DNA of 64,000 nt from Chlorella sorokiniana (taxonomy: Eukaryota; Chlorophyta; Trebouxiophyceae; Chlorellales; Chlorellaceae). The position numbers and the translations under genes are program-made. The notes beneath the pieces were generated by a model that saw only the letters and a list, made by a program, of their open reading frames with translations, was not told where the DNA came from and made no database searches. Below are positions 8,601 to 56,300 of this stretch, piece by piece. The number at the start of each line of letters is the position of its first letter. Positions within the stretch are counted from its first letter, which is position 1. The stretch spans positions 2,480,001-2,544,000 of the forward strand of contig CP084608.1 of NCBI GenBank assembly GCA_025917655.1, read 5' to 3'.

Positions 8601-11600
8601 AGGAGGGAGCAGTGGAGTGTGGGGGCGCAGCACGCAGGGCTGCTGAGCAGCCCAGGCAAGCAAGGGTCGGTGCGGTCCAGCAGCAGAGCTGGGGTGGCAG
8701 CTCGAGCCCACCCACCTCGCTGGCTTGCCGCAGCAGGCGAATGGCCCTGCCTCAGGCACCCCCAATCTACACACCCACCCACCCAAGGATGCCGACCACA
8801 CCCAACCACTCGCCCACCTTGATGTCACGCTGCACCTCGTGCCGCGGCCGCCCGCCGCCACAATCTCGGCGGTGGCTGCCTCCAGGGCGGGGTCGTCCAG
8901 CAGCGCCAGAGCGCCGCGCTCCTCCAGCAGCGCATACACGGTGCGCAGCGGGCGCACACACCTGTTTCATTGTTTGAAAGTTTGGGGGTGGGAGTGAAAG
9001 GTGTGGGTGGGTGGGAGAGCGGGCTGCGGGACAGCAGTTTGCGGCAGGTGAGGGTGCAGCTGAGCTGCAACAAGCAGGCAAGTGCGAGGCTGAGAGCGCT
9101 CGGTGTGCAGCTGACATGCTGCCATGCCGCCGCGGCGCCTGCCCCTGCCCCGCAGTGGGCACGGTGGGGCAGCAGGGTGCCGGCTTGATGCAGACCCCAC
9201 TCCAGTCCCCGGTGAGGGGTGCAGCCAGGCGGGACGGGCCCTGGCCCAACTCACTTGAACTCCAGCAGCTGCAGCAGGCGGCACAAACAGCACCGTGAAT
9301 TGAGTAGTCCAACGTCACAACGTTGAGGCAGCCACGGGCGCAGCCCGGCCAGGTGCTGATTTGAGAATGCGAAGCTGAGGGAGGGAGGGGCGCCAGCTGG
9401 CATCGTACCTCCTGTATCTCGGGGTCGGCGCTGTCCTGAAGCAGGTACATCATCTTCCCAAAGGTGTCCCGCATCTGCGCATGTACAAATCACCGTACAA
9501 ATAGCAGTGAAAACCCAAGAAATCCCTCGGAAGAAGCAACACGAAGGCCGCCTTTCGAATGAGGGGCAGCGCCAGCTCGCGGCCCAGCAGCTGCGCCGCA
9601 GCAGAGCGCACGGGGTAACCTCCCTCGAGCAGCCCACCTTCTCCGGGTTCATGATTTTATGGCGGCGCCCACCTCGAAGCAGTCCTGCAGGAGGCAGGCG
9701 AGCGCAGGCCGCAACGTTTGTTGTTGAAAATACGTTTCGAGCTCGAATTGTTACCAAGCAGCTGCAGCATGCGGCACGCCTGGACAGAGCAAGGCTGGAA
9801 ACAAGGCGGGGTGCAAAACAAGGCAGCAGAAGGGCAGCGCCGGCGCTCAGCAACCAGTGCGATCCAGCACAGCCAAACAAGCACCTGAAAGAACTGGCGC
9901 AGATCCGAGAAGTCTCGGTCCGTGATCAGCTGCTGCCCCCGCCGAAAGTCCTGCACAGGCGGGCAACGGACGTCGACGCAGCAGCCGCATGTTTGTGGCA
10001 AGCCAGCGGCGGCCTCGTGTTTGCGTGACACCAGCTGCCACCCTACAGCTCTCCACTCCAGCCTCGGCCTAAAACGGCTGCCAAACCGGCCAGCCTTTGG
10101 TCCTGTCCCAGTCCACAGACCGAGATTGGTGAACAAACATTCACAAAATGAGGGCGAAAAGACAGCAGAAGGCCCCCAAAACTGGCTGGCGCAGCCGCTC
10201 GCCTGTGCCACCACCAGGCCGCACAGTATGGCGCACATGTCCCGTATCTGTGCGTGCACGCGCCCGCTCTTCTTGCGCCATGTGATGACGTCCACGCGGT
10301 CTGCGGCAGGGGCAGGGGCGGGGACGCACGGGCAAGAGGGTGGTGGGTGTGTGCGGAGGTGGTGGGGGGGCGCGGCTGAAGGGCAGGCCACCACCACCCA
10401 CCGCTTGCTCCCCGCAAAACAACCCAATCATCCCCTTGAGAGCCCGCCCCCAGCTTGCCCACCCACCTGTGTACTCGCTGACGTGCAGGGCAGCTTCCAG
10501 CAGGCGCAGCAGCCGCCGCTCGTCCATGTCCAGGCGCAGCGGGATGTACCGCGCACGTTCCCGGAGCTGTCGTGGAAGCTGTCCTGGTCCGCCGCTGCCG
10601 CCGCCGCTGCCGCCGCGCCCGCGGCGCCGGGGGCAGCGCGGGGCCGATGAAGCCAGATGCGGGGGCTGTTCCGGGCCTACCGCAGCGGCAGAGGGATCAT
10701 CCTCGAACTCGCCGCCGTCGTTGGAATCGCCCGCATCCTCCCGTGGCCGCTTCATCTCCACGTCTCCATTTGACTCCAGGTCGGCCTGCAGGCGGCAAGG
10801 GGAGGTGAGCAGGCAGGGGGCAGCGGCGGCGCAGCAGCGGATGGCCAAAGGGGGCGTGACACCCGCTGAAGTTCCTGCCGCGGTGACAACACCATGCACA
10901 GGGCAGCCCAGCGCGACGCAGCACCCGCAGGCGTCCCTCCAGAGCTGCTGCCGGGCGGGCGCCAGGCTCAGCCCACAGCCCAGCAGTGAGCTGAGCAGCC
11001 GCCGCCGCACCCCACCTGCGACAGGGAGCGCTTGCTGGTCTCGGCCTTGAGCTGCGCAGCGCTGGCCCGGGCCTCGGCCGCCGCCACCCCGAGCTCCTCC
11101 AGCAGCTTGCCCATCTCGGCGGCGGCGACGACGGCGGCGGCGCCGTCGCTGCCGCCGCCCGCAGCCCCCATCCCCGCCAGCAGGCCCTGCAGCTGCTGCG
11201 CGCGAGCCAGCAGCGCTGCGGCATCCGCCTCCTTTTGGCCCAGGTACTCGCTCCATTGCTCCTGAGCCACCGCAAGCCGCCGAGCGTTGGCCTCAGCATC
11301 TGCCTCGGCCCGCAGCCCGCGCAGCGTGCTCCTCTGTAGGGCGCATTGCAGAAGAGGATGTTGGGGTGAAAACTAGGATGCGTTGTTACCAGTAGCATCC
11401 TCGGGCAGCACGCACGCATTGAGAAAGGAATGGCAACCACAGCCGGCAAGTCCATGCAAGCACCCCACGCCGCTGCCGGCCCGACTGCGGCGACGGCATT
11501 GCTGCAAGGGTGGCCAAGGGCGTTGTTGGCAGCTGAATACCACATCTGCATGACTGCCTACGCACCATACAGGCGCTGAGCCTGATCATCGCCAGCGGGC

Positions 11601-31421: not shown

Positions 31422-34400
31422 ATGGGAAAGCTCACCGAACTTCTCACTCACCCCGATGAGCTGGTCCCCATGGTGCGCCAAGCCCTTGCGCTGCTAGTCT
31501 CGGCCCCCTGCTGAATTGCACCGTTCAGCAATGTCGGGGGCCCAAATTGCGTGATCCCGGAGTTGCACCGCACCGCCCTACCTGCCGCCCAACCGGCGGC
31601 AGCAGCAGGCTTCCTTTTTCAATGGTGCTGGTTTCCCGCTCTTGTGCGCAGGCCTCCATGTATCTTGCGGCCCGACGCGCCAAGCAGCTTCCCAAGGAAC
31701 CGGGGCTGGCATTCTGCTACGACATGCTGAACCGCGTGTCACGCAGGTGGGGGGCTGCCAGCCCTTGCTGCCGCCGCTCTCAACAGACCATGAAGATGTC
31801 CGGCCCAGTCCGCCGCGGCACCCGAAATTCTTGCTTTGACAACGCATTCGTGGGCTCTGCAGGGGTGCCAGTTACTGGTCGCCCCTTGGTTGGTTGCTTT
31901 ACTTATCAACCAGACCAAAGTGCGTCGCTGCCCTGTGCTTCCCCTGTACGGCTTCCCCCAGCTTTGCTGTCGTCATCCAGCAGCTGCCGCTGGAGCTGCG
32001 GGACGCCATCTGCGTGTTCTACCTGGTACTGCGGGCGCTGGATACTGTGGAGGACGACATGGCTCTGGAACCCCAAAGAAGGTGCCCCTTCTGCGCAGCT
32101 TCCACGAGAAAAGCTACGACAGGTGGGACCCTTGGTGTTGTGGGGGGCTGGGAGAGGTCCAATCGTGGGGTGGAGTGGGCAGGCGAAGCTTTATGAATAG
32201 TGCTGCTGCGTTGGCGCTGGCGCTGGCGCTGGTGCTGGCGAGCAGCGGCGAGCACAGCCTGGTGCAGCATCGCTGTGCTAGAGGGTCAGCCAGCCCCTGC
32301 CGCCCAGCTTCTGCTCGTCTGGCGCGACCCCAAGGTTGACTCATGTTTGCAACTCATGTTTGTTGAGTGTTGGCATCCCCAGGAGCTGGAAGATGAGCTG
32401 TGGCAGCGGCGAGTATGTGCGGCTAATGGAAAACTACCCGCTGGTCACCGGTGAGGCTGCGGGGCGGGCACAGCGCTAAGGTGCCGCTTGCAGCTGCGCC
32501 AGGCTGCCAAGCATGCCTGGTAGATCCAGCGCCCACTGCCCTCAGCACTCCAATCCCCTCGCGCTCATCGCCCGGCCATCCCACACCTTGCTGTTGATGC
32601 TCCCCCTGCAGACGTGTTCCTGCGGCTGGATAAGAAGTATCAGGACGTCATCGCGGACATCTGTAAGCGCATGGGAGCGGGCATGGCGGAGTTTGTAACA
32701 GCGGAAGCGGCAGAGTCGGAGGTGAGTGGGTGTGTGTTGGTGTGTGTGTATGTGGGTGTGTGCGTGTGGTGGTGGTGGTGGAGGGGGGCGGGGGTTAAGC
32801 GGGCCCACGTGCGGTATGGGGGACGCTGCCCGACTGGCTGGCTGGCTGGCTGGCTGGGGGCAGGCTGAGTGGCAAGGATCAGGTACAACGGGATAGGCAC
32901 CAAACTATTTCATTTACCTCGGCCGCTAGCCTTGCCATCCTCTGCGCTGCACGCCTCTCCGGGCAACCAGACCCCGCCCTGCACCGTGGCCAGTAATGCC
33001 AGCGGGACTGCATTTGCACTTCACTTGTACCGCATGTGTACCGCAGGTGGACAGCGTGCAGGACTACGACCTGTACTGCCACTACGTGGCGGGGCTGGTG
33101 GGCATCGGCCTCTCCCAGCTCTTTGCCTCCTCAGGTAGGCTTAAACGGTGGAAGGGTGAGCCAGCGCCACGGCGGGTCACGGGCACGGCTGTTGGGTCAC
33201 GGGGACGGCTGAAGGAGCCTCAGCGGCGGCGCTGCAGGCGGCGCTGCTATGCTTGGCAGCACAAAGGTTGCTCTGCAAGGGATGCCGTCCTTCTGGCATC
33301 AACAATCGAGTCGGTTGACGTGTGACCCCCTACCCACCCACCCGCCCACCTCCCTGCGCAGGCCTGGAGGCGCCGTCGTTCCACGACACCAAGGACGGGC
33401 TGGCCAACGACATGGGCCTGTTCCTGCAGAAGACCAACATCATCCGCGACTACCTGGTGTGTCTGTGTGTGTGTGCGACGGCGGTGGTGGTGTGTGGGTG
33501 TGGATACAGCAGCATAGAGACCTCTTCTCCCTCAAAATGTCGGGCTGCTGCTGGCAACCCGCCCCTTGCCTGCCTGCCCACTCTCCCGCTGCATGCCCCG
33601 CAAAACAGTATCAAGAGCCCCACCCACACCCTCACCATCCACCCCTCACCCAACCCCCATCGCCTCCCTTCTCAGGAGGACATCAACGAAGAGCCGCGGC
33701 CGCGCATGTGGTGGCCCCGCGACATCTGGGGCCGCTACGCCGACTCGCTGGAGGCCTTCAAGCAGCCCGAGCATGCAGCGGCGGCGGTGCGCTGCCTCAA
33801 CCACATGGTGAGGTGGCGGTGGCGGGCCGGGAGGCGCAGGGAGAGGAGTCAGGGTTGGGCCCCCTGCTGTGTTGGGAGACAGCCGTGGGGGCAGCGAGGG
33901 CAGCGGCCATCTGCCAAAGGTGCTGCTTCATGGGGCCTGGCCCAGCAGGCAGCTCTGCCTCCGTGCCTGCGCCGGTTTCAGCCCAACCGCCTACGACCGT
34001 ACCCTTGCTTCTTGATATTTCTTGATAACCCCATTGGACTTCCGCACCAGCACGCAAACAAACGCCACCACGAATGACCCCCCCCCGCGCCGTCCTCCAG
34101 ATCACTGATGCCCTGCGCCACGTGCCCGCCTGCCTCGAGTACATGTCTCGCCTGCGGGAGCCCGCCGTCTTCCGCTTCTGCGCCATCCCGCAGGCAAGGC
34201 TGCTGGGTGTTGGTGGTGCTGTTTTTGCATTTTACGAATGGATGCTTTGACGCTCCTGCTGGTGCCTCTGAAGGCGTGATTTATCGTCATGAGAGGGGAG
34301 GGTTGGCTAACCGCTTCCTGGCTAGCAAACCCACCTGTCTGCCCTGCCCGCATCTGTGCACAGATCATGGCCATCGCCACGCTGAGCCTCTGCTACAACA

Positions 34401-40285: not shown

Positions 40286-41317
40286 TCAGTCTGAGTCGGA
40301 GCCGCTGCTGCTGCTGGAGCCGCTGCTGCTGGAATGCCGCCGCTTCTTCTTCTTCTCCTTGCGGCTCTTCTTTTCCTTGCGGCTCTTCTTCTCCTTGCGC
40401 CGCCGCTTCTCCTTGTCCTTACGCTTCTTCTCCTTCCGCCGCTTCTTCCTGCAAGTCAAGCACCATGCACGCAGCAGTCAGCAGCGTGACGAGGGCTTCC
40501 CAAGGACCGGAGCCCTGGCTAGGACAAACGTGCGGCAGCCAGCCCAGCAACTGCGGCAGCCAGCACATGCGGGCAGCCTCGCAAAGTGGCAGCTGCAGGC
40601 CCCCCCCACACACACATACACGAACACAAAACTCCCCCATCTACCAGGCACCTGCGCCGCTCCTCGTCGCTGCTGTCGTCGCTGAGGCTCAGGCTGCCCA
40701 TGCTGTCCTCGCCGCCGTCGACGGGCTGGGGCAGCGCGGCGGCGGCATCGGCGGCGTCGGCGGCATCGCCGCCGCCCCCGGCAGCACAACGCCGTTGCGG
40801 CACTGCTTGGTGAGGTGGCCCATCTGGCCGCACACCTTGCAGGCGCCGCGGGTGCCGCTGCCCACCGCGCCCTGCTGCTTGGCCATGGCCAGCAGGCTCT
40901 GGTAGTTGGTGATGCTGGTGTCAAAGCCGCCGGTGGCCATGACGGCCTCCGCCGCCGCCTGGCGACGCGCCTGCGTGGCCTTGCGCCCGCCGCCAATGGT
41001 GGGCGCGTTGATGAGCGCCTCCACCCCGTGTTGGTGCCCGCCTGCTGCTCCGTGATGCCAATCACGTTCTCCCACATTGAGTTGCCCTGCAGCGCCGTGC
41101 TCGTACGCACACGGTTCGTGCTGGCCTTGAGCACGCCGCGGGTGCGCACCGTGGCGGGCCTGCAGGGGAGCAGGGTGAAGCCGGGTTGACTACGCAGGGC
41201 CAGCAGAACTCTCGGGGTGGTGCGGCGGCCGAGCTGTCCCCGAAAAGTGGGGTCGGCGGCGCTTTCCCAAGCGTTTACAGCCACTGGGAGTCACGCAGAG
41301 GCCGTGGGAACTCACAT
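40286..41317 (-). CDS. CCHC zinc-knuckle, Lys/Arg/Ser-rich nuclear protein (ZCCHC10/SREK1IP1-like)
   Basis: Probable RNA-binding or splicing-associated nuclear protein. One zinc knuckle, CKVCGQMGHLTKQC (C-x2-C-x4-H-x4-C), at about 40795-40840 is followed by an acidic Ser-rich stretch (GSLSLSDDSSDEERRR) and a basic tail with KKRRKEKKRKDKEKRRRKEK, then KEKKSRKEKKKKRRHSSSS, ending in SSSSSDSD. This order of knuckle, acidic-Ser and KEKK/SR tail matches SREK1IP1 and ZCCHC10. Coding exons are 40652-41159 and 40286-40448. The start appears to be split by an intron: AT at 41317-41316 next to GTGAGT, and G as the first base of exon 41159, giving M-PATVRTRGVLKASTNRV. The internal Met of MWENVIG is the fallback start. 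Single bases are missing in C runs near 41025 and about 40770 (plus strand), giving about 224 residues. Confidence 0.75.
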
Positions 41318-42432
41318 ATTGAGAGGACGGGGCTCGTAGTGCGCGCCGCGCGCTGATTGCTTGCCCTCTGGCGCTGTGCCCTGCTACAGAACCCTTCTTA
41401 GCCTCTGAAGGGCTGGTGTCAAAGCGAGGCTTGCAGCACGGAAGCGGGACACCCAAGTCCCTAGCAGATTCTTGTCGGCGCTGTGTTACCGATCCTGGCG
41501 CAGCGCTAGACAGACAAAGAGAGTAACGACTGCGCTATCGCGTAGCTTCCCTTTCAGTGGCTACCAGGCTGAGCTGGCGGCACCACCGCCGCGGCGCTGC
41601 CGGCCTACTCCCAGCAGCACGCTGAGAGCACTTCTGGAACATGCTGCTCGCAGCGGTTTGCTCTGGGGATGTACGCCTTCACTCAGTTTCAAACTTAAGG
41701 AGCAGCTGATTCATTTGACCGCTGGAAAATGTATCGTCGAGCACGCGTCTTGAAGCCTCTTCCCCAAGTGGCTTGAAGGAGGGTTGCCCTCCGCAAAATG
41801 CCAATCATTGATCCATGCTACCAGAAACGGAAATTTTTGGTGGTTTTCGGGATTGGACAGTCTGCAGAAGGCTGCGCCCTGAGCTGAGATTGAAGTTCCT
41901 GGCACAGCGGGGACTGCCTGTCCTGTGCTGTCTGTCCAGTTGCAGGTGCAGGTTGAGCCAATTCTGCAGCCTTGTTTCCGATGCTGTTGGCATGTGCTTG
42001 AGTCTGCCGGACATGTTCACTCTAGAAAAGCATGAGAAACCTGAACTCCGGGCGGGAAAAGGGCGGGGATACGACCTCTCAACGACAAGCTGCCTCTGAC
42101 AGGGCTGCAGCCGTTCGATAACTGAGTGTGAGCGGGTGAAAATGCACTGGCGGAACTGGCAGGAGGTGCATTGGATTGTGGCGCATCTGGGCGCCGCTTC
42201 TTGTCTTTCCAACGCAGAGGACAGCACCATTTCGCCAACGCTTGAATGTTTCAGTGTCGCAAGGTTTCGTAGTGCGTCGATTGTTTTGGGCTTACCGCCT
42301 GGTGTCTTGCACAAGGAGTTCAGGAGCGGTTTGGCGTTTTAGGCCCATGGTTTCGCTTTCCAGTCTGTTGTGATTGCAATCACAATTGGCCAGAGCTTGC
42401 TGAGCAGCAAGCTCGCCGGCTGCCCCGCCATT
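41318..42432. promoter_or_regulatory. Divergent upstream region of CCHC and rhodopsin kinase genes
   Basis: About 1.1 kb between two outward-facing genes, with lower GC from about 41690 to 42370. GCGGGAAA at 42052-42059 matches the E2F consensus in reverse, 370 bp before the rhodopsin gene. I see no gene here; the open stretches of 60 to 170 codons look like chance. Confidence 0.35.
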
Positions 42433-45400
42433 ATGCCCGCTAAGGGTGCCCCCGGGCGCACCCGCTTGCTCAGAGGAGTTGGTGGAGCAGCAACCCGATA
42501 AGCGCCTGCACTTCTCAAAGAGTGCGGCCTATGTAAGGTGCGGAGGGTTGTGTTTCTGGTGGCAGCAGCGTGGCCTTCCGTTGCCTCCCTGGCAGCTCGA
42601 CACTGTCTGTGCGGTTTGTGCATGGCAAGGTATGCCCTGTCGGCCATGCCGAGCGCGAGCGGGACACGCCGCTTGCGGGTGACGGCGGCGCAGCCTTGCG
42701 GCGGCACCACTCACTGCTTGCCCGCATTCCGGTCCCACACGCAGCATCAGCGCGCTGTCGTACGCCTTCTGGATCCTCTACATGTGCCAGCATACCGACC
42801 CGGAAGCCGCCGAGAAGTTCTACTCGCAGGTGAGGCTGCAAGGTTGGCGCAGCAGCCGGGAGGAGCGGGCGCCCGCTAGCAGCATCGCTTGCTGCTGCAC
42901 CGCTGCCCATCCCAGCTCTGCGCCCCAGCCCAAGAGCTGCCGCCCCTCTGCGCCCTGCCCACCCTCCGTTTCAGGTCCCCGAAGCCCTGTACATGTGGCC
43001 CATGATTGCCTTTGCCACCGCCATCCTGCTCAACCTGCTGTCCATGGCGTTTGAGCGGCGCCCCGTCAAGCGCCAGCTCTGCTTCCTCGCCGTCTTCATC
43101 TCCGGCGTCGCGTTCGTGTACGAGTTCCTGGCCTGGCAGCAAGTGGCGCCCGTCTACCTAACAGCCGCGGGCGGCCCATCTCGCTGCTGAGGCGCGCAGC
43201 TGCCCCTGGGTGCTGCCACCACCCTGGAACCACTGCGCAGAACCCAGCAGCCCCTGGGTTGCGGAAGTGCTGCTCTTGTATCCACACACACACCAGCTTG
43301 CATGCCGCGCCTCCGTCGCTCCTTCAACAACCCCCCGCCACACACACCACCCCCACCCCCACCCCTGCAGATATGTGATGTGGGCCCACGCCACGCCCCT
43401 CATGCTCTACGCCCTCTCCATGATCTCCGACTTCAGCGCCGCCCAGGTGGGGCAGACCATCGCCGTGGACATCGTCATGATTGTCACCGTCATCCCCGGA
43501 GAGCTCATCCCAGGTGCCGCATCTTTCATGTTGTTGATGCTGCGGGCCTTGTGATGCCTGTGCCGGCCCCCGCTTTCCTGCTCCTGCGCACATGCCTTCT
43601 CCCTGCTGGCCCTGGTTGCCTGCATGGGTCTTTCCGCTCTGCCTCGCAACAGCCCAGCTGCTGCTGGAGGGATGGCTGTGCTTGGTTGTGGGTGGGTGGA
43701 GGCCGGTAGGCACGCGTGCCGCTGGCCCTGGCCACCACTGTTTCCACCCCTTGCTGCCCCCTAACCCTCCCACCCACCCACCCAATGCTGCCTGTGCGCA
43801 GCTTGGCACCGCTGGATCTGGAACTTCATCTCGTGCGCTGTCTACCCCTACATCTTCCACCAGGTGCGCCCCTCAACCCCCACCCCCACCTGTGCACCTG
43901 CTGGCCCCGCCGCCCCTGGCTGCTGCCAGGGGGGTCAGCATTACCTGCTCTGAACAGGCAGAGATTCAGCCCTCCGTGCCCGGTCGTCTCCTCACACTTC
44001 ACCTCCCTCTCAGCCGTCCGCTGCTCCCTCTGCTGACAAGGCCCCCCTCCCCTCCCTGATCTGCCTTGACCTGCTCAACAGCTGTGGACAATGTACTCGG
44101 CCGCCATCGCCGAGGCGCGGATGGACGGCACCCAGGCCTCGCTGCGCATGCTGCGCAACGTCACCGTCGTCTTCTGGTCCGTCTTCCCGCTCGTGTGGGT
44201 GCTGGTGCAGGTGGGTCGTGCACCGAGCATGAGGGGGATGCTGTGTCTGTACCATGCAGAGGGCCAGCCGGGCTGAGCTGGGCGACTAATGTGCGCTCAA
44301 TTGAGCGCTCGACAGAGGGCTTGTGCTGGCGAAGGTTCGCGGCACAGCGCGGACACAGCGGCTTCATTTCACGCCGTGCAAATCCGCAAATACCCTCCCG
44401 CGCGCCGCGCCCCCTTTCAACACACCGCCTTCAAAACGCCCCCCCACCACCACCACCACACACCCACCCACACACTCTGCCGCCCTTCCGCAGCTGGACT
44501 GGGTGTCTCTGTTCACCGAGGAGCTGCTGTGGTGCGTGGCTGACACGTGCGGCAAGATCTTCTTCTCCTCCACCCTGCTCCACTCCAACTTCATGTCGAT
44601 AGAGCACCGCCGCATGGTGGCCATGCGCGTGGTGGAGGAGGCCAACCGGTGGGCCGCTGCGCGCGGGCGCTGTGCTGTGTCGCGGGGCGGGTTGGTGCGG
44701 CGTACGGCCATGAATGATTTGGGTGGCTAGCTGTTCCTGGTTTGCGTTTGAGGATCGGCGCAGAGCAGCGGCGTGGGCGATGCCAGCTCCCCTGGTACAA
44801 TCTCCGCAAATCTCGCTCAGCTGTGACAGCTAATGCTGGCGGGGGCATATTGGATCCTTGCCCTTCCCAGCATGGCGACATGCAGCGTCGGGGCAGCTTT
44901 TCCGCCCCATCCCACCCCAACCTCTCACCCACTCTGACTGTACCGTGGTGTACCGCCATGTACCGCACCGCAGCATCAAGGTCATTCACGAGCTGCGCCA
45001 GCTGCTGGAGCAGAAGGAGTCGTTCATTGCCACCATGAGCCACGAGCTGCGCACCCCCTCAACGGCATCATCGGCCTAAGCAACGTGCTGCTCATGGATG
45101 CAGGTGTGTGTGTGTGTGCGTGTGTGGGGGCGGGCGGCGTGCGACCTGCGCAGGTGACGTTTTTGTTTGTGGCTCTTGCACAGGCGGTACCGGTCTGGTT
45201 CTGGTCTGCAAGAGTGTGCGCTTGTGCACATGGGCGCGGTCGTGGGGAGGGGCCTGCACAGCTCACCAGTTGCCGACCCTGTGTCGTTATTACGACAATG
45301 GCCACGACCGCCAGTCTCAGCGCCGCGCTCACTCTGCAGATGCCGCAGTGCCTTCGCCCCGCGAGCTGCGCGCAGTCGCCCGCCGCCGACTGCCGTCGCT

Positions 45401-48210
45401 CGTGTTCCCACCCTTCATTACTGCAGATACGATGCCGGCCGACACCGTCAAGACGCTGACCACGATCCGCAACAGCGGTGCGCGCCTGCTCAACCTCATA
45501 AACGACATCCTGGACGCGGCGGCGCTTCGCAAGGTGGGTGGGCGTCGTGAAAGGGCTGCGGAGTGATGGCTGCCACATTGGTGTCGGGAGAAGGTTGGGG
45601 TGCTGGAGGGTAAGGAGGGAAAGAGATCGTTGCGAGGATGGCAGGGGCAGCGTGGAAGGCCACGAACACGGCATCAGGCCTGCGATGTCGTTGCAGCGCC
45701 GGTCCCGGCCTTCCCCACCCCTTGCTCCCCCCTCCCCTTTGACCTGCCACCTGCCAGCCGCTGCCGTGCGCCGTTTTCTGGCACTTCTGTTCCGCCCGCC
45801 GACCTTTCTCTGTGCGTTTCGCGTCGCAGGGCAAGCTGACTGTGCGTCACGGCAAGGTCAACCTGCGGCATGTGGCCGACGACGTGTTGGACCTGGCCGC
45901 CGCCCTGGCCAAGCCGGGCGTGTCGGTTCGCAACCGCATCGGGGCGCACATCCCGCAGGTGCGCTGCGCACGCTGGGCCCTCGCTCATGATGGCAGCGGG
46001 GCAGGGCACCATTCCCTGATCCAGCTGGCCGGGGGCAGGCAAAGAAGGGGAGAGCACCTTTGGGTGCAACGGTGCTGCCCGGCTGGCTGGCTGGCTCGTG
46101 GGCAGGAGGAGCTCCATGGCACTGAGCAAGCTGCCGCCTCTGTGACAGGGGCCCGTCTGCGGCCGCATGTCTGCCAGCCGGCACCGCCAGTCGCATCCTC
46201 GCATGCACGCCCCTCTTCGCATATTCCCATGCCGAGCCCCACGCACAGAGCATCCCTCCCTTTTCTTCTGCCCACAGCTTGATTTCCAGCCTGACAGGCC
46301 ATCCACAACACTTGCCGCTGCGTGCCGCTCCCCCGCTGTCCGCTCTCAAACAAAATAAAGAAGAGACGTTCTTTTTGTGTTTCTGCAGGTGGTCGGGGAC
46401 ACCAGCCGCATTGTTCAGGTGCTCTACAATCTGGTGGGGAACGCGGCCAAGTTCACGGAGAGGGTGAGGAGCGCCGGGTTGTGTGTTCAGCAGCAGCGTG
46501 CGCAGTGCATTCCCCTGTCTGCCTTCAGTTTACCACCTGCAGCAGGGCGGCACCCTGCCGCCGTTGCTGCTCTTGCTCCTAGGCCCCCCACAAACAAACT
46601 CGCACGCTCGTGCGCGCACTGGGCGCCACTTGATGGCGCTGCTGCTGCAGAACAACCAGGCATGCTGTTTCCGTTCCAACCCTGCCGCCGCTCCCCCCCT
46701 GCAGGGCGACATCTGGGTGGATGCCGTGCTGTCCAAGGGCGGCGACGTGGTGGCCGTGTCGGTTCACGACACCGGCATCGGCGTCCCCGCCCACAAGCTG
46801 GACGACATCTTCGCGCCCTTTGCGCAGGTCCGCGCGCGTGTGTGTGTGTGTGTGTGTGTTTAGGGGGTGCTGTTTGTTTGGTGTGGGTGGGTGGGAAGGC
46901 AGGCGCTGCGCTGACCTTGCCATACCCACAGGCCGCCTCTCTCCGCCTCACAAAGAGCTCCCCATCAAGCCCCCTCCTCGCTACACACACCAGCCCCGCC
47001 TCCCACCCCCACCGCCCCAGGTCGACATGTCGACCACGCGGCGGTACGGCGGTACAGGCCTGGGCCTCAACCTGGTGAAGCAGCTGGTGGAGCGCACGGC
47101 GGCCAGATCAGCGTCGCCTCCCGACCCGGCCGCGGCTCCGTGTTCACCTTCACGCTGAGGGTGAGAGGGGTGGGATGGGTAGTGTGTGTGTTCTGGGTGT
47201 GTGTGTGTGTGTGGGGGGGTAGTTCGCTGAGGTGGTGGCTGCTGAGGCTTGTTGAAGTCGTGCCTGGACAGCAGCGGCCTCCCAGGTTGCCGCGGAAGCG
47301 CGCCGCCCGGCGCAGCGTGCCTGGCTGCTGGCTGCCACCGCGCTGCTTGGAAGCAGCCGCCGCGGTGCCGGCCGCCCACCACACCAGCTGGTGTGCCCAC
47401 CCGCCTGGTGTGCATGCGCTTGCTGGGTCCCCCACCCGCCTTGCTGCATTATCATCATCATCATCCTGGCTGCGCAGGCGTGGCGGGACGGCGAGGCAAC
47501 CCCTGGGCCAGTCTCTGCAGAGGAGCGGCGGCGGCTGCAGGCGGCGGCGCGGCATGCTGCGCACGAGGCTGACCAAGAGCTGCATGGGGTGCGCTTTGTT
47601 TCAGTTTCATTGCACCTTCCCAGGGAACAGGGGCTACCCGGGAGGGCGGCGTATGGGGCGGGCCCGACGCTCCGCTGTGCTATGAGGGAGCTTGTGGCAC
47701 ACAGATCCCTCCCGCTGCTGGTGCGAATGCGGCGGCAGTGACAGGCGGGCCCTGGTGTGCAGCATGCAGCCCAAGTGTGATGCCGGTCCACGGCACAGGC
47801 GGCAGCGCAAGCCCCCACCGTTGGCAATGCCGCCGCGAACCTGCGCTGTCAGCGCTGTCTGCCCCCTCCCTCGCCTCCATCAGGCCCATGCAGCTGCCTG
47901 CACCTGTCACCCCTCAACCCGCACACCCCTGCATGCACCTCCCCTCAACCTCTTCTCTCAACCGTTTGATCCGCCTCAGGCCGAGGATGGAGAGGATGCG
48001 CCGCTCCTGCGTGGCGACGACCCGCCCGGGCGCTCGGCTGCTGCCGCCGCCGCCGCCTTCGGCCGCCGCGACTCGGAGGCGGACCTGACGGCGCGGCTGA
48101 GCCACGACGCGCAGCCGCACAACATGCTGCAGCGCCTGTCGGGTGAGCGGCTGTGGCTTTGCGGGGGCGACGCGGCAAAGAGGTTACAGTGCTGGGTCCT
48201 TGGGGGGCCG

Positions 48211-48241
<31 letters not shown>

Positions 48242-51045
48242 CGCACGGGAAAGGGGGGGGATGTACAGGTAGGGTTCTTCCCATGGCCGGTATCTGTGCC
48301 GGCAGGCCCGCTGCGTCATCTGCAGCTGCGGCCTATTGATTGAAACAACGCAGGATCCCCAGCCCACTCATGCCGCCCCCTATGTACTGCCACCCTGTAC
48401 CACAGCTGACTCGCGCATGCGCTCCTCCTATGATGCTGACTACACCAGCTACCACAAGGCGCCGCAGCAGCTGTCCCCGCAGGTACCGCGGGCCGCCACG
48501 CTGCGCCGCTCTGCACTGCTCGAAAGCATTGCCGCTAGCTGTGCCACCGCAGCGGCGGTGCAGCGCATCCCTCGCCGCTGCCCAGCAGCCCGGGCACAGC
48601 TCTCTTACACCCTGAAGTTATGCGCGCGCCCCCCCCACCCACCCATCCACCCACCCACCCACCCACCTCCTGAATCCAACCCCGCAGGCAGCCTTCAGCG
48701 CCTTCCTGTCGGCGGGCGCCCATCAAGTGGTGAAGGACATCCAGCGGGGGCAGTGGAGCAGCCGCAGGATTTGGCGGCCAAGGCAGCCGAGGAGAGAGAG
48801 CTGCGTGCGGCGGCGGCGCCGCCCGCGGCCCCCGCCACGACTGGCTGCTGGCGGACCAGGCAGTGCGGCAGGGCGCCGTTGCTGGCGGCATCAAGGTGCG
48901 ACACCTGCTCTCTCTTCCTCCCTTTTTCTTGCCGCCGCCTCGCCCGGCCTGCGCTCCCCCTGCCGTGCCGCTTCCCTGGTGCCGTCCCAGCAGCTCTGCA
49001 CAGCACAGGCGTGGCTGCTGCCGCAGCTTCCCATGGGCAGCGACAGCGACACTTTCAACGCCCGCATCCCCTCCTCATGTACGGAACGGTACCTGATGTG
49101 TGCCCTGTCCCGCGGTACCGTACCGCAGGTGCTGTCCGTCGACGACGACCCCGTCAACCAGATGGTGGTGCAGAACACGCTGACCAAGGCCGGCCTCGCG
49201 GTGCTGAAGGCTGCCGACGGCCAGAAGGCGCTCGACATGCTGCAGGTGTGTGTGCACGTGTGGGTTGGGTTGGAAAACCGGCTGTGGCGGCAACTAGCTG
49301 CCAGATGGTGTGTGTGTGTGTGTGTGTGTTTGGGTACATGAACTGTGTGGTGGTGGGGGTCTGGGGAGGAGGGAGTGGGGGTGTTTTTTGCATGCAACAT
49401 TGCGGCCAGGGTTGCAGCAAGCCCGGCTGGCTCCTCATGCCCTGTCAGCCTGCTGCTGGCGCCCTCCCTCACCTCTCCTCGTCCCCGCTTGAGAGCAGGA
49501 GAGCGTCGAGCGCGGCTCGCCCCCACCTCATGCTGCTGGACGTTATGATGCCGGGGCTGAGCGGGTGAGCACCCTGCAGCAGATCCCCAGTTCAGCTGGA
49601 GCACCTGTTCTTCCTCAGCCTTGCTGCTGCTGTGGCGCTTGCTTCTGCAGCGGCCCTTGCAGGGCAGGCGCTTGCCCTTCTCCGGCTGTGCTGTGGCCAA
49701 TGTCCTATGCGTATCCCCCTCCGCCGATCCTTCTGCTCTGGCCACCCGCTCGCATGCTCTCTGCTGTTGCTTTTTCAGCGGCACTCTCACCCTCCCCCGG
49801 CCCCCACCCACCCACCCACCCGCGCTCGGCAGATACGACGTGGCGCGAGAGGTGCGTCGGCGCCACCCCTCCCTCATGCTGCCCATCATCCTTGTGTCGG
49901 CCAACTCGAGGGAGGACCACGTGGTGGAGGGGCTGCAGGTGGGCTGTGGTGTATGCAGTGGTGGGGGGGCAGGGGGTACAAATATCCGGCAGCAGGGAGG
50001 TGCTGCTCCGCTGGGCAGGAGAGGGGCCTCTGTTCAACGTCTTGCAGCGAGCTGTGCGGGTGGGGGCGAAGAGCTCCCTTGAGTTGCGACATGCGTCAGA
50101 GACAGTCGGGCAGCGCGCGGCGGCAGTGTCTCCTGCGCTGGTTGGCAACAAGAGCAGGGCCTTCAGCCAGCCATGACCCCGGCCTGCCCCCCCCGCCCCG
50201 CCATCCATCCTCAGGCCGGTGCCAACGACTACGTGACCAAGCCCTTTGGCGGCCGAGAGCTGCTGGCGCGCATACACGCCCAGCTGCGCACCCAGCACTT
50301 TGCGCAGGGCGTGACGGAGGGGGCGGCAGCCGAGGAGGCGGCGGCCCCCCCGCCGCCGCCAGCCCCCGGCAGCCGCCGCCACCGCCGGCCGCGGCGGTTC
50401 CGTTGATGCCGGGCCTGGCGTCGCTGGCTGCGGCCTCCTGCCGCGCACGTCCTCTGCGCCTGAGCTTGCAGCAGAGGAGGCGGCGGCGGTTGCTGCCTCC
50501 GCCGCCGCCGCGCTGGCAGTCGCCGCTCAGGCTCCGCCCAGCGCCTCGGTGCAGTGGCAGATGGGTGCGCTGCAGCAGCAGCTGACGGCCGCGCAGCAAC
50601 AGCTGGCGGCGCTGGCGGCCGCCGCCGGCACCGCCCGGTGCTGGCGCAGCTGCAGGCCGCTGCTGCCAGCTCAGCCGCCGTGCTGGCGCCGCCGCCGCCC
50701 GCCGCCAACGGCGCGCCCCACCGCAGCGGCAGCCCTGGGGGCGGCTCCATTGTCAGCTTGGAAAGCAAGGACAGCGGCAGTCCGGAGCGGCGGCAACCGC
50801 AGGCGCCACTCCCTCCCCAGCTCAAGCAGCAGCAGCAGCAGCATGCGGAGCCCCGCTGGCGCCCCCGGCAGCCGCTGCCGGGCCAGCCTGCAACGGCACC
50901 AGCGCGCGTGGACCCGGGTGCTCCTCACCCGGCAGCCAGAAGGCCGATTCTGGCTAGGTCGCCGAAATGTGCGCCGCGTGCGCACACAGCCCGCTCATCA
51001 AGCCTCGAGTGTGGCTCTTGCCCCCACCAATGTGGCGATTCTTGA
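42433..51045 (+). CDS. HKR: Histidine kinase rhodopsin (HKR): retinal domain, kinase and receiver
   Basis: A predicted photoreceptor joining a microbial-type rhodopsin to a two-component kinase and receiver. Retinal helices: YMWPMIAFATAILLNLLSM (exon 42975-43191), LCFLAVFISGVAFVYEFLAW, RYVMWAHATPLMLYALSMIS (43371-43513), TIAVDIVMIVTVIPGELI, WIWNFISCAVYPYIFHQLW (43802-43863), VVFWSVFPLVWVLVQ (44082-44210) and CVADTCGKIFFSSTLLHS (44494-44648), where Lys 44554-44556 binds retinal. Kinase: SHELRTP H-box (His at 45041), YNLVGNAAKF N-box (46389-46463), DTGIG (46705-46827) and RRYGGTGLGLN (47021-47160). Receiver: SVDDDP (49129-49245), LLDVMMPG with the phospho-Asp, LVSAN (49833-49938) and DYVTKPF (from 50215). 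The tail is Ala-, Gln- and Pro-rich and has no cyclase domain. Single missing bases at about 43173, 45056, 47095 and 49522 interrupt conserved motifs. The first two exons and the ATG are tentative. Confidence 0.9.
48211..48244. repeat. (GT)n(GC)n dinucleotide tract in an intron
   Basis: An alternating purine-pyrimidine run of eleven GT units followed by six GC units, inside an intron of the rhodopsin kinase gene. Such a run can adopt Z-DNA and is prone to length change. Confidence 0.75.
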
Positions 51046-51774
51046 CACCCATTTCTTGCTTCTCTCTCCCCATCACAGCCAGACAGCTGACTGCAGGTCG
51101 CCCGCCTCTTGCGCCTGCTCCTGAGGAAGAAACCAGCCGTGCCTGTGCGGGTGTGTATTTTTGTGTGATGCCGCGGCGTGGGCTTGCACGCGTGGCAGCC
51201 ATCCCTCCCCCAGTTCAGCTCTTTTTCAAGCGGGGCTGTTTTCTGTTTCAAACCTTGCTTACCCCATCAACCACCCTCTCAACGAACGCCTCGCCCATGC
51301 TTGCTGCGTCCTGGGCGGCTGCACATCGCGCCGCCTCAGCTTGACGCGTCTTCGCTGCCTCGGCCCCACAACCTGTCCAGGCAGTTTTGTCCCCCGCCTT
51401 GCTTTCGCGGCAGTCCTGCTCGCATGCATACCGTGTTGCTGCCTTTACCCAGCCATCTGTCTGCCTTTTTTCCGTTCTTCGCGCCTTGCTCCTTGTCAAG
51501 CGGCTGCTGGCTTGCACATTTCCGCCGAGCGCCCCATATCTTGCTGCTTCATGTGTCCTCTTCCTTCCAAATTCCTTTCATCCAAATTTATGCGCCGCAT
51601 CCCGGCCACACAACCTGTCACCTGGTTGGTTCACTTGGGCAGCCCAGGCATGCATGTGCTAGAGGCAGCTGCGGGGGCCATGCCAGGTTGTTTGCATGGC
51701 TGGCTGCTGGTGCTGCCGCTCATGGCAGCCTGTTTGTCACTCAGCTGGAAGCCTAGCCTAGCCCTGCCGCCGCC
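51046..51774. other. Convergent 3' region of HKR and DDX31 genes
   Basis: About 730 bp between converging genes. It is T- and C-rich on plus from about 51250 to 51620 (CTTTTTTCCGTTCTTCG and similar), as in many 3' UTRs. The end of the HKR reading frame at 51045 is itself tentative because of its low-complexity tail. Confidence 0.4.
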
Positions 51775-53274
51775 TCACACCAGCGTGTAGGTGCCGCCTG
51801 TGCCGCCGCCGCCTACCGCCGCCGCGCTGCGCTTTCTCTTCTGCTGTTGCTGCTGCTGCCCGCGCGACACATGCGTGGCCTTGCGCTTTTGCTGGGCTGC
51901 CTGCTTGGTGGAGGACTTGCCCACGAGGGTGGGGCGCTCCCTGGGGGGTAGGGGGTGTTGAGGGGAGACACAAAGGTAATAGCATCAGCCCAACGCGCCG
52001 CGAAGGCCCGCCACACTCCCCACGCTCAACAGCCCACCCAGCCGCCGCCATGCCCGGCAGCAGAGCGTGGGCGCAGCAGCGGCGGGCGTGCTCACTTGAG
52101 GGCGAAGGCGTGCGCCACGTGGCCCAGGTGCAGGCGGCGCACGTGGAAGACGTGCTTGACGGCGGCCGCGTGGGTGGCGAGGCGCGCACCCAGGACCTGC
52201 GTGTGTGGGTGTGTGTGTGTGCGGGGGGGTGCGGTGTGGTGTGTGTGGTGCGGTGTGGTGTGTGCGTGTGGGTGGGGGGGGCTGTCAAAGGGGGGATGGG
52301 GGTGGTGGCGGTGTAAAGATTGATGTCATGCAACCATGATCTCAGTGGATCGGTAGGTGGGTGGTTGAATAGTTGTTTGTGTTGGTTGGTTGGCTTGGTG
52401 GGTGCAGGAAGGGTCGACAGGAATGGCAGCAAGGCAACGCCGAGCGCAAATGCAATGAAAAGATGCCGCGGGGCAGAGCTGGGAGCCCACACTCGGCGGC
52501 TCTGCGCCAGCAGGACATGCCAGAAGCGTGCCAGGAAAGGCGACGCTGCAAGGGAGCAGCGCCGCGCGGCCCCCACCTGAAGGCGTCGCCGCCGAGCCGC
52601 GTCAGGCGGCGGTCGGCCGCCACCGCCTCCATGAGCTGGCGCTGCAGGGCGTAGGCGCCGTGGTGGCGCTCCAGAGGCAGCTCGGTGCCCGCCTGCAGCG
52701 ACAGAGCGAGCGCAGGGGGCGGCCAGGGGAGCTGGGGCAGCAGTGCGTGCAGCTTGGGGGCTCGCCTTTTACCCTGCATCACCAAGCCTCGTCAGCGCGG
52801 CCGCAGCTTTGGTGCGTTGAGGTCAGCAACAACCCGTCAGTGGCGGGAGTTGCAAGTCAAGAACCCCTCTTCCCGCCCAACACACACGCCCACTAACCCA
52901 CCCACCCACCCAACCACGCAACACACAGCCCACTCACCCCCTCCTCACCTTGCGGTCCGCCCCCAGCACCGCGTTCAGCATCGGCGCCGCCGCAGCCTCC
53001 CTCAGCCTCACGCCGTGCGCAGCCAAGTGCTCCACATACTCTCGCTCGCTGCAGCACAGCGGGCCGGCGCACGGTTCAAGCGTGCTTCTGGATTGAGGAC
53101 AGGTCGGAGCGACAGCACGGCGCGCGCAGCAAGAGCGCCTCTCGGGACTCTGGAAGCACACATGTGCGCCATCCCATGCGCCACCTTGCCCCCACCCCCA
53201 ACACACCCCACCCAAACACACCCAACCCCAACCCATCCATACGCAAATCACCCGCACAAGCCCCCCACACCCCC

Positions 53275-53323
<49 letters not shown>

Positions 53324-56300
53324 CTGGGCATGAGGAAGAGCGTGGCGTTGCCGCGGTGGCCCAGCCGAGCGGTGCGGCCCACGCGGTGCACGTACCTGCA
53401 GCAGCAGGGAGGGGGCGGGCGGGTCGCAGGGAGGTAGTACCCGGAGAGCCAGGCGCCAGCTCAGGGCGTGCTGAAGGACGGCAAGAAGTGGCGAGAGTTG
53501 GCGGCAACGCCACCACAGAAGCGCGGCCCGGCCAAGGCTGCCCCGCCCCCTGCCGCCGTGAGAACACAAGTGCGTGGCAGCGCGTTGGCGGCAGCGAACG
53601 AAAGGAATGATGGCAGGGGAAAACAAATTCTCTGCCTGGCGGCAGCAAGAGCACAATCGCAGGGAGCAGGCAGGAGGCGCTCACTCCGAGGCCTCGCCCG
53701 GCGGGTCAAACTGCACAATGTCGGAGACGGCGGGAAGTCGAGGCCCCGCGCCGCCACGTCGGTGCACAGCAGCACCCCAGCGGGAGCCTTGGAGAAGGCG
53801 AGGAAGGCGGCGGTGCGCTCCGCCTGCGCCATCGAGCCGTGCAGCTTGAGCAGGGGCGCCCGCGGCGGCGGCGGACAGCAGGGGCTCGCCCGTGGCGGGC
53901 TCCCAGGCCTCGGCGAGAACTGCGTGGTGGTGGGATGGGGGTGGGGGTGGGGGTGTGGGCTGATAGGGTACGATTACGGGCATACAAGCAGCAGTGGCCT
54001 TGTGCAGCGGCGCAGATCAGCACGGGTGGACTGGCTTGCGGCCACCGTTCGGGGTGGCCGGCACATGCAGCGGCGGCGCACGAAAGGGACCAGCTCAAAG
54101 GGTTTTGGGTTTCAAGGGGTCCTCAAGCCACACTGATGGCAGGCTTGCCTGCGTGATAATACTCCACGGCATCCGTGGTGGCCAGGAAAGCAACCAGCTT
54201 GCAGGTTCCCGGAGCGGCTGCCACGCGGGCACGCAGCAGCGCGCCCAGCGCCACCAGCCGCAGCTTACAGGGGACCTCCAGGAAGCTCTGGCGCAGCTGG
54301 GGGGCAGGCTGAAGCGCTGCTGCCCCGCGGCGGCAGCAGGGGCGGCTGGTTCGCCCTCCGCCTGCCCCTGCTGCGCCTGCTGCGCCTGCTTCACCACCAT
54401 GCGCCCCTCCACCATGTCGCACTCGAAGCCGACGGCGGCCGGCTCACGCAGGCTCATCGCCGCCAGCGAGCCCAGATTGCTGTGCAGCGTGGCCGAGAGC
54501 AGCGCCGTGGTGCGACGCGCAGCGTAGTCGGCGGCGGCGCAGCGCGCGTCCAGCAGCGCGCACATCTGTGGGGAATGTGGGGGAGGCGGCGGCGGCGGGC
54601 GGCCGTCGGGGTGCGTCGTTTGCGAGGCGGCCCCTGCCTCTGCCCTCCAGCATGCAGCGCAAGCACGAGTTTGGCAGCCTGTCTTCCTCGCTGCGGAGGC
54701 GCTCAAAAGCCGAAGTTCACGGGCAGGCAGAGCTCCCTCCTCCCCATCATTTCCAACTATCCGACCATCCGCTCCTTCATCTGCCCTCCTGGCTACCCAC
54801 CCACCTCGCCGATCTTCTGCTCGAAGCCCAGGTCCAGCAGGCGGTCAGCTTCGTCCAGCACCAGCCAGCGCAGCTCCTCTGCTTGGTTGGTAGTGGCGGT
54901 GGTGGTGGGTGGGTTGGGTGGGTGGGTGAGTGGGGGAGGGGTTCAAATGCAGGGGTGATGTTGGTGGGGTTGTGGGGTGGGGCGGGTGGGAGGACTTGCA
55001 TGGGTGGGGGGACTTACATGCCCCAAAACAGGGGCTTGATGAAGCAGGGGCTGGGCGGGCAAGTAGAGGCCCGTGCAGGTGCTTCCTGGCATGCAGGCAG
55101 AGACCGCTGGCGGGCGTCCTTGCTTGTGAACCCCAGCCCCACCCACACACCCACACCCGCAAACCGGCCGCCGCAACGCGAGCGACCCCGCCTTGGAAGC
55201 AGCAGCGGCGCCACACGCTCAACTCCCAACGTGCGACACCCACCCGTGCGGAAGGCCTGCGTGTTCTGAAGGTGGTCCAGCAGGCGGCGGGGGTGGCCAC
55301 CAGCACGGTGACCCCCGCCGCAGCCGCGCCTTCTCCTTGCCCCGGTCCTCCCCGCCGTGCACGGCGCCGCCCACCTGCTTGGCAGAGGGGGCAGCGACGG
55401 GTTTGTGTGTGTGTGTGTGTTTGCGTGGAAGGGGTGTGCATTTGATTTAGATGGGTACAGATGAGAACGGGGGATGGAAGGCATGGCAGCGCCCGAACCA
55501 TAAACACTGGGCAGGCGGGGAAAGGGGGTGGGGCCCGGCAAGGCTGCTGAACAAGGGGCAGCGGCCTCCCGCATGGCATTTGCCCGCCAGTCGCACCAAG
55601 CCGCAAACAGCGTCGCCAACTCATCCGCCGCCCGGCTCCTCCCCACCGCCCACCCAGCAACAGAAGGGCACCAAAGCCCCGAAACGGTGCGGTGGCTCAC
55701 CAGCCAGACGAAGCGGCGCAGCAGCATGGCCAGCACGTCGGCCACCTGCAGGCAGAGCTCCCGGGTGGGGCACACCACCAGGGCGTGCGTGCCCTGGCCG
55801 CGAGAGATGCGCGGCTGGGCGGCGGCCAAGCAGTCGACGATGGGGGCCAGGTAGCTGTCGGGGGTGGGGGGGGAAGGGTGGGGGGCAGGGAGGGAGCGCA
55901 GCGTGAGGCCGTGTCGCACAGCGTTGCACAGCATGTGGCGCAGCGTTGCAAGGCCCGTGGCGCAGCATGCCGCACGCAATCAAGGGGCGAGGCCAGGCGG
56001 CCGCAGCGGGGCCACCACAACAGCAAGCAAACGCAGCAAGCGCAGCCAACAGGTGGCCGAGGCGCCCTGCGGGCCCAACCTGAGGGTCTTGCCAGAGCCG
56101 GTGGGGGCGTTGACCAAAGCATCCCGCCGGGCCTGCGGTGCCCAACACACGGGGTTCAGCAGCGGTCGCGGCGAGGCTGCTGAGCCACAGAGAACTAAAG
56201 GAAGCGGCTGCGACTCGAGTGCAGGGCAGGCTGGGACCTGGACAGGCACGGGCTTGGGATTGAGCAGGCAGGAAGAAAGCGTGGGAAGGGAGCTGCAGCC

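Follow-up and report, generated by a model that had tools for sequence, protein, structure and literature searches.

Among the histidine kinase rhodopsins (HKRs) of green algae, Cop5/HKR1 of Chlamydomonas reinhardtii is the one whose photochemistry bears most directly on the present work. According to the parts of the literature available to us, it is bistable and is converted between a form at 380 nm, in which the Schiff base is unprotonated, and one at 487 nm, both of which are stable in the dark; the UV form is taken as unprotonated also in the available part of PMC12046560. Cop5 and its relatives are described as having eight helices and a cytosolic N-terminus (PMC6284317, in the sections at hand). 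In published chimeras, as far as these are covered by the same body of text, the Cop5 opsin controls an enzyme. The output of switch-Cyclop1 goes up with UV-A and down with blue light, and a chimera retaining the Cop5 kinase has low activity, on which light is without effect. Other HKRs described in these sources absorb, or have their highest sensitivity, in the green.

The residues of modular rhodopsins at the position of Asp85 in bacteriorhodopsin (BR, whose numbering is used throughout) are collected in Table 2B of PMC7693036 (Awasthi et al. 2020), the 43 rows of which correspond to 46 proteins in our count by hand. A methionine is tabulated for five of the 46, namely Cop5/HKR1 (where it is M113), Vop5, GpRh4, CsRh1 and ApRh1. 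All five carry Asp212, Thr90 and Glu204, while an alanine at position 89 is listed for CsRh1 and ApRh1 only.

In the present work, we examine a locus in a 64,000-nucleotide stretch of Chlorella sorokiniana DNA (the window), for which an earlier note had proposed a UV or blue light sensor lacking the helix-C counterion. We will argue that the gene encodes an HKR of the Cop5/HKR1 type that belongs to the CsRh1/ApRh1 subgroup (Met85, Ala89, Asp212) and probably switches between UV and blue forms, a reading by analogy to which we assign a probability of about 0.72.

Open frames, protein similarity and splice borders together outline one intron-rich HKR gene on the + strand, from ~42.4 to ~51.0 kb of the window, for which 21 exons were modelled (Table 1). 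The intron borders are GT-AG in 19 of 20 cases, the single GC-AG pair being that of intron 3. Its donor (GAG/GCGCGC) lies ~15-30 bases past the frame change within exon 3, and may itself be a sequence error. The same intron splits the Arg82 codon in the splice model (43190-43191 plus 43371), in which the AG of the genomic AGA at this site belongs to the splice acceptor. Downstream of its last stop, exon 1 is without an in-frame ATG, and one in a neighbouring frame is found at ~42.43 kb. A single full-length transcript would span the whole gene. The rhodopsin had previously been placed at 42975-44648, and it does occupy that interval, but it begins upstream of it, in exons 1 and 2.

Table 1. 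Features of the HKR gene, in window positions; a slash marks the exon-intron border.
Feature	Position	Strand	Remarks
Exon 1, 3' part	42404..42537	+	Ends ...SKSAAYV with split Ser codon; donor AAG/GTGCGG
Exon 2	42745..42829	+	Remainder of additional N-terminal hydrophobic segment, SISALSYAFWILYMC
Exon 3	42975..43191	+	Helices A and B; frame change ~43163-43178; GC donor at 43192
Helix-B Glu codon	43122-43124	+	On BR Tyr57 (ungapped BR alignment); one position earlier in Rh-PDE alignment (manual reading)
Exon 4	43371..43513	+	Helices C and D, RYVMWAHATP...; start of Arg codon supplied by exon 3
Met codon ATG	43378-43380	+	BR D85 position
Ala codon	43390-43392	+	BR T89 position
Exon 5	43802..43863	+	Helix E
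Exon 6	44082..44210	+	Helix F: W182, F185, P186, W189
Exon 7	44494..44648	+	Helix G: E204, D212 (44542-44544), K216 (44554-44556)
Exon 8	44974..45103	+	HisKA H box, His codon 45041-45043; frame change near CCCCC run at 45054
Exons 9-10 with intron between	45427..45958	+	Remainder of dimerisation domain
Exons 11-13 with introns	46389..47160	+	HATPase_c: N box, G1 DTGIG, G2 GGTGLGL; frame change past G2, ~47.09-47.10 kb
Exons 14-17 with introns	47478..48895	+	Linker; frame suspected to change twice in exon 17
Exons 18 to first part of 21 with introns	49129..50400	+	Response regulator; frame change near CCCCC run at 49520
Response-regulator residues	49539-49541; 50239-50241	+	Codons of phospho-acceptor Asp and of Lys, respectively
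Tail	50400..50957	+	Ala/Pro/Gln-rich; frame and stop codon uncertain (candidate ends include 50957 and 51045)

For the Pfam scan, the exon pieces were joined across the introns, with an X placed at each frame change. Bac_rhodopsin is matched over exons 1-7 with E = 1.6e-29 (PF01036; 103.4 bits against a cut-off of 24.6), which is far above chance, and exon 7 contains the D-x3-K motif; the features of a microbial (type I) rhodopsin are thus present. HisKA (5.3e-13) and HATPase_c (2e-29) follow in exons 8-13, and Response_reg (2.5e-28) in exons 18-21, such that the HKR order of rhodopsin, HisKA, HATPase_c and Response_reg is found within one exon chain. The catalytic motifs are kept, these being the H-box His, the N box, G1, G2, and the Asp and Lys of the receiver. 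In the linker (exons 14-17), no Pfam family was matched in the 140 residues scanned, which cover exon 17 in part. The three + frames of 50215-54002 contain no cyclase or other Pfam domain up to E 0.01. A two-component cyclase opsin was rejected on this basis, and the receiver is without a detectable fused output enzyme, in contrast to that of Cop6.

The reading frame of the gene is interrupted at several places. Four frame changes lie within conserved stretches, namely in the B-C loop of exon 3 just before helix C, after the H box in exon 8, after G2 in exon 13 and before the receiver Asp in exon 19, so that three of them adjoin catalytic motifs. Exon 17, for which no family is available as a guide to the frame, is suspected to contain two more. 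With these breaks, and with a start codon that is not placed in frame, one might take the frame changes as genuine and the gene as a decayed or non-expressed copy from which no full-length protein is made. However, the retinal-site and catalytic residues that were checked are all kept, and so are the GT-AG borders at all introns but one. Furthermore, C or G runs of at least five are found near four of the six breaks, compared to 0.4-0.7 of six expected from other stretches of the same exons, a pattern typical of sequencing or assembly errors, although the stretches around the breaks were picked by hand and the enrichment is therefore only suggestive. The breaks of the B-C loop and after G2 are away from such long runs, which speaks for decay. 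For runs of at least three there is no enrichment (five of six breaks, with 3.6-3.7 of six expected). We consider a decayed copy highly unlikely, and the frame changes are probably errors of sequencing or assembly. These in-exon frame changes and the unplaced start codon nevertheless make a functional product less certain.

We now turn to the retinal pocket. Among the best 60 of 125 PDB matches listed, the closest solved relatives of the rhodopsin part are Rh-PDE (9.3e-19) and bacteriorhodopsin chains (from 7.8e-18), the top one of the latter being a mutant with Ala in place of BR D96. The Rh-PDE entries, 7cj3 and 7d7q, are presumably from Salpingoeca rosetta. In the material at hand, Rh-PDE is described as an eight-helix enzyme rhodopsin; it differs from the present protein by having Glu85 and a phosphodiesterase output. 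The segment RYVMWAHATP pairs gap-free with RYADW of bacteriorhodopsin and RYAEW of Rh-PDE, which puts the Met on D85, as the earlier note had it. On the N-terminal side, GRPISLLRY of exon 3 aligns with QNPIYWARY and GNPVWLMRY, respectively. The landmark residues that the note listed are likewise there, with R82, Y83, W86, P91, D212 and K216 of bacteriorhodopsin all matched. Thr90 and Glu204 are also present, the distance from the Met to Asp212 is 125 residues, position 96 is Ala, and the Tyr185 position is Phe (in the W-x-x-F-P motif).

It is important to establish that the Met is not an artefact of the sequence or of the exon model. A change from ATG to an Asp codon takes three base changes, and to a Glu codon two or three, and a single-base sequencing error was therefore rejected as its origin. 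Exon 4 is flanked by AG and GT, and all six frame breaks fall outside it; two of its three frames are free of stops, but the rhodopsin helices come from one frame only. The re-examined exon thus leaves the Met in place. A light-driven proton pump was rejected on the basis of Met85 together with Ala96, which leave no carboxylates at positions 85 and 96; since position 96 is Ala, the donor of a pump is missing too. The protein is thus probably not an ordinary proton pump, in agreement with the earlier view.

The Met column was also compared with the HKRs of the PMC7693036 table, in which the same residue is given for Cop5/HKR1. It had been presented as a striking departure, but it is already in print as a feature of one HKR subgroup, the five of 46 proteins named above. 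The comparison with CsRh1, ApRh1 and Cop5 is one of tabulated residues and spacing rather than of full sequences. On these terms, CsRh1 and ApRh1 share with the present protein Met85, Ala89, Thr90, Glu204, Asp212, Lys216 and the 125-residue spacing from Met to Asp, and in the available part of the paper both are tabulated as HisK-RR and are absent from the cyclase list. They differ from it by having Thr96 in place of Ala96, and position 194 is Leu here and in CsRh1 but Ala in ApRh1. To judge by its prefix, ApRh1 may come from Auxenochlorella. Cop5/HKR1, Vop5 and GpRh4 have Met85, Thr90, Glu204, Asp212 and Lys216 in common with the protein, and Cop5/HKR1 also the order rhodopsin-HisK-RR. Their Thr89, on the other hand, is Ala here, their spacing is 126, and the excerpted descriptions give Cop5 a cyclase domain without key residues, whereas no cyclase was found here. 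With Ala89 rather than Thr, the protein is therefore grouped with CsRh1 and ApRh1, as HKR1-like but outside the Thr89 set.

A single chain also combines a rhodopsin with a histidine kinase and a response regulator in Cop6/Cr2c-Cyclop1 and Vop6. Gln85 and Asn212 are tabulated for them (PMC7693036), and Cop6 is described as green-sensitive (PMC8815786) with an active guanylyl cyclase (PMC6284317), in the portions at hand of these papers. When the helix C-G protein was used as a query, viral contigs were free of pattern matches, and prokaryote contigs yielded 15 of these without any relative in tblastn, as expected, since algal relatives are unlikely there.

The earlier note derived the UV/blue assignment from the loss of the counterion, which was assumed to shift the absorption to the blue or UV. 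This does not hold as a general rule. A neutral residue in place of the counterion leads to a red shift according to the available text of PMC10743670, with bR D85N absorbing at 604 nm, and HKR2, in which carboxylates are absent from all the common counterion positions, has its sensitivity maximum in the green (PMC8815786, in the part at hand). Two outcomes are thus possible after counterion loss, and the choice between them rests on the comparison with HKR1. These precedents raise the alternative that the protein is a visible-light sensor with HKR2-like signalling, in which protonation of the Schiff base is maintained by Asp212, perhaps together with a helix-B Glu, and the effect of Met85 is confined to colour tuning. 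The helix-B Glu does exist in exon 3, but the alignments disagree on where it falls, and the sole Met85 HKR characterised in the literature searched is a UV/blue protein. We find this alternative unlikely. In the available part of PMC7693036, CsRh1 and ApRh1 are labelled 'green' via the proteorhodopsin-105 rule, which calls Cop5 green too, although Cop5 is UV/blue. No spectrum of an Ala89 HKR was found in the literature searched, as far as that text was accessible. By homology, a UV/blue sensor is the best reading, because Cop5/HKR1, which shares this Met, behaves as a UV/blue switch. The proposal of such a sensor with kinase output is in this sense probably right, by homology to one characterised protein, but the reasoning by which it was reached is unreliable. 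The substitution of Thr89 by Ala means that the photochemistry may differ from that of Cop5.

Upstream of 42975, exons 1 and 2 encode an additional hydrophobic segment, with a hydropathy maximum of 1.47 over 19 residues. In the hydropathy scan, this segment stands out along with helices A, B, D, F and G, while C and E, which stay under the cut-off, were placed by alignment. The segment is in line with the eight-helix design, with a cytosolic N-terminus, that defines enzyme rhodopsins of type Ib and is described for Cop5 and relatives.

The Glu in helix B affects what can be said about the counterion. Asp212, which had been regarded as the only counterion left, is present, but whether it is the only one is less certain in view of this Glu. 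The bacteriorhodopsin and Rh-PDE alignments differ in where they put this residue, which leaves an uncertainty of one position or more, and a search of the helix A-B fragment against the PDB returned nothing useful (two matches, with E 1 and 2.1). If it faces the Schiff base, the Glu may be a second acidic group beside Asp212, and it could then stabilise a protonated Schiff base, which would count against the UV form. Another option considered is that the Schiff-base carboxylate has been shifted from helix C to helix B, such that the Glu at or beside Tyr57 pairs with Asp212 and, as the proton acceptor, decides between a UV and a visible chromophore. We regard this as distinctly improbable; if it were the case, the Met85/Ala89 subgroup would switch via a proton path unlike that of HKR1.

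The UV/blue-switching kinase that we favour would operate as follows. The domain order, the residues and the presence of the catalytic motifs are read directly from the exons, and the steps connecting them are proposed by analogy. Retinal would be bound to Lys216. Since the counterion site of helix C carries no carboxylate and the face formed by Met85 and Ala89 is hydrophobic, one stable state at least would most likely have an unprotonated Schiff base, and the rhodopsin would alternate between UV-A and blue/cyan forms, like HKR1. Helix G would then relay the change via the linker into the HisKA/HATPase kinase, which would phosphorylate its own fused response regulator. Since no cyclase was found, the receiver domain would hand the output on to partners encoded by other genes.

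The locus adds a new Met85/Ala89 member, apparently cyclase-free, to the small set of HKRs. A comparison with HKR1 would tell whether Met85 is sufficient for the UV/blue switch or has to be joined by Thr89 and other residues, and a bistable UV-A/blue rhodopsin driving a two-component pair could become a light-controlled kinase tool. The advance is a modest one, because the literature already contains the Met as well as a description of how one Met85 protein behaves.

A number of other genes were observed in the window. On the - strand, convergent with the HKR gene, there is a helicase gene at ~52-56 kb, perhaps of the SPB4 type, in the pieces of which Helicase_C is over the cut-off and DEAD and CTE_SPB4 are just under it. 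In the same region but on the + strand, ARAGORN with the bacterial code predicts a tRNA-Arg (anticodon gcg; 54290-54369), the only one in the window, which may be spurious. A zinc-knuckle (CCHC) protein is encoded at 40692-41189 (-); its match is weak and under the curated cut-off, and our impression is that the frame may switch within the gene. At 5647-11292 (-) lies a gene for a DUF2009 (non-canonical E2 ubiquitin-conjugating) protein, with profile positions 1-31 and 412-436 of 455 matched in the two ORFs scanned. An aldose 1-epimerase gene of several exons is found at ~36.5-37.9 kb (+), with a best E of 2.5e-20. Finally, part of a squalene synthase gene is located at 31951-32082 (+), with SQS_PSY at E 3.7e-14 in Pfam and a best PDB match of 4.1e-13; the 10 PDB matches listed are squalene synthase or farnesyltransferase chains, and a weak further SQS_PSY piece is seen near 33.4 kb.
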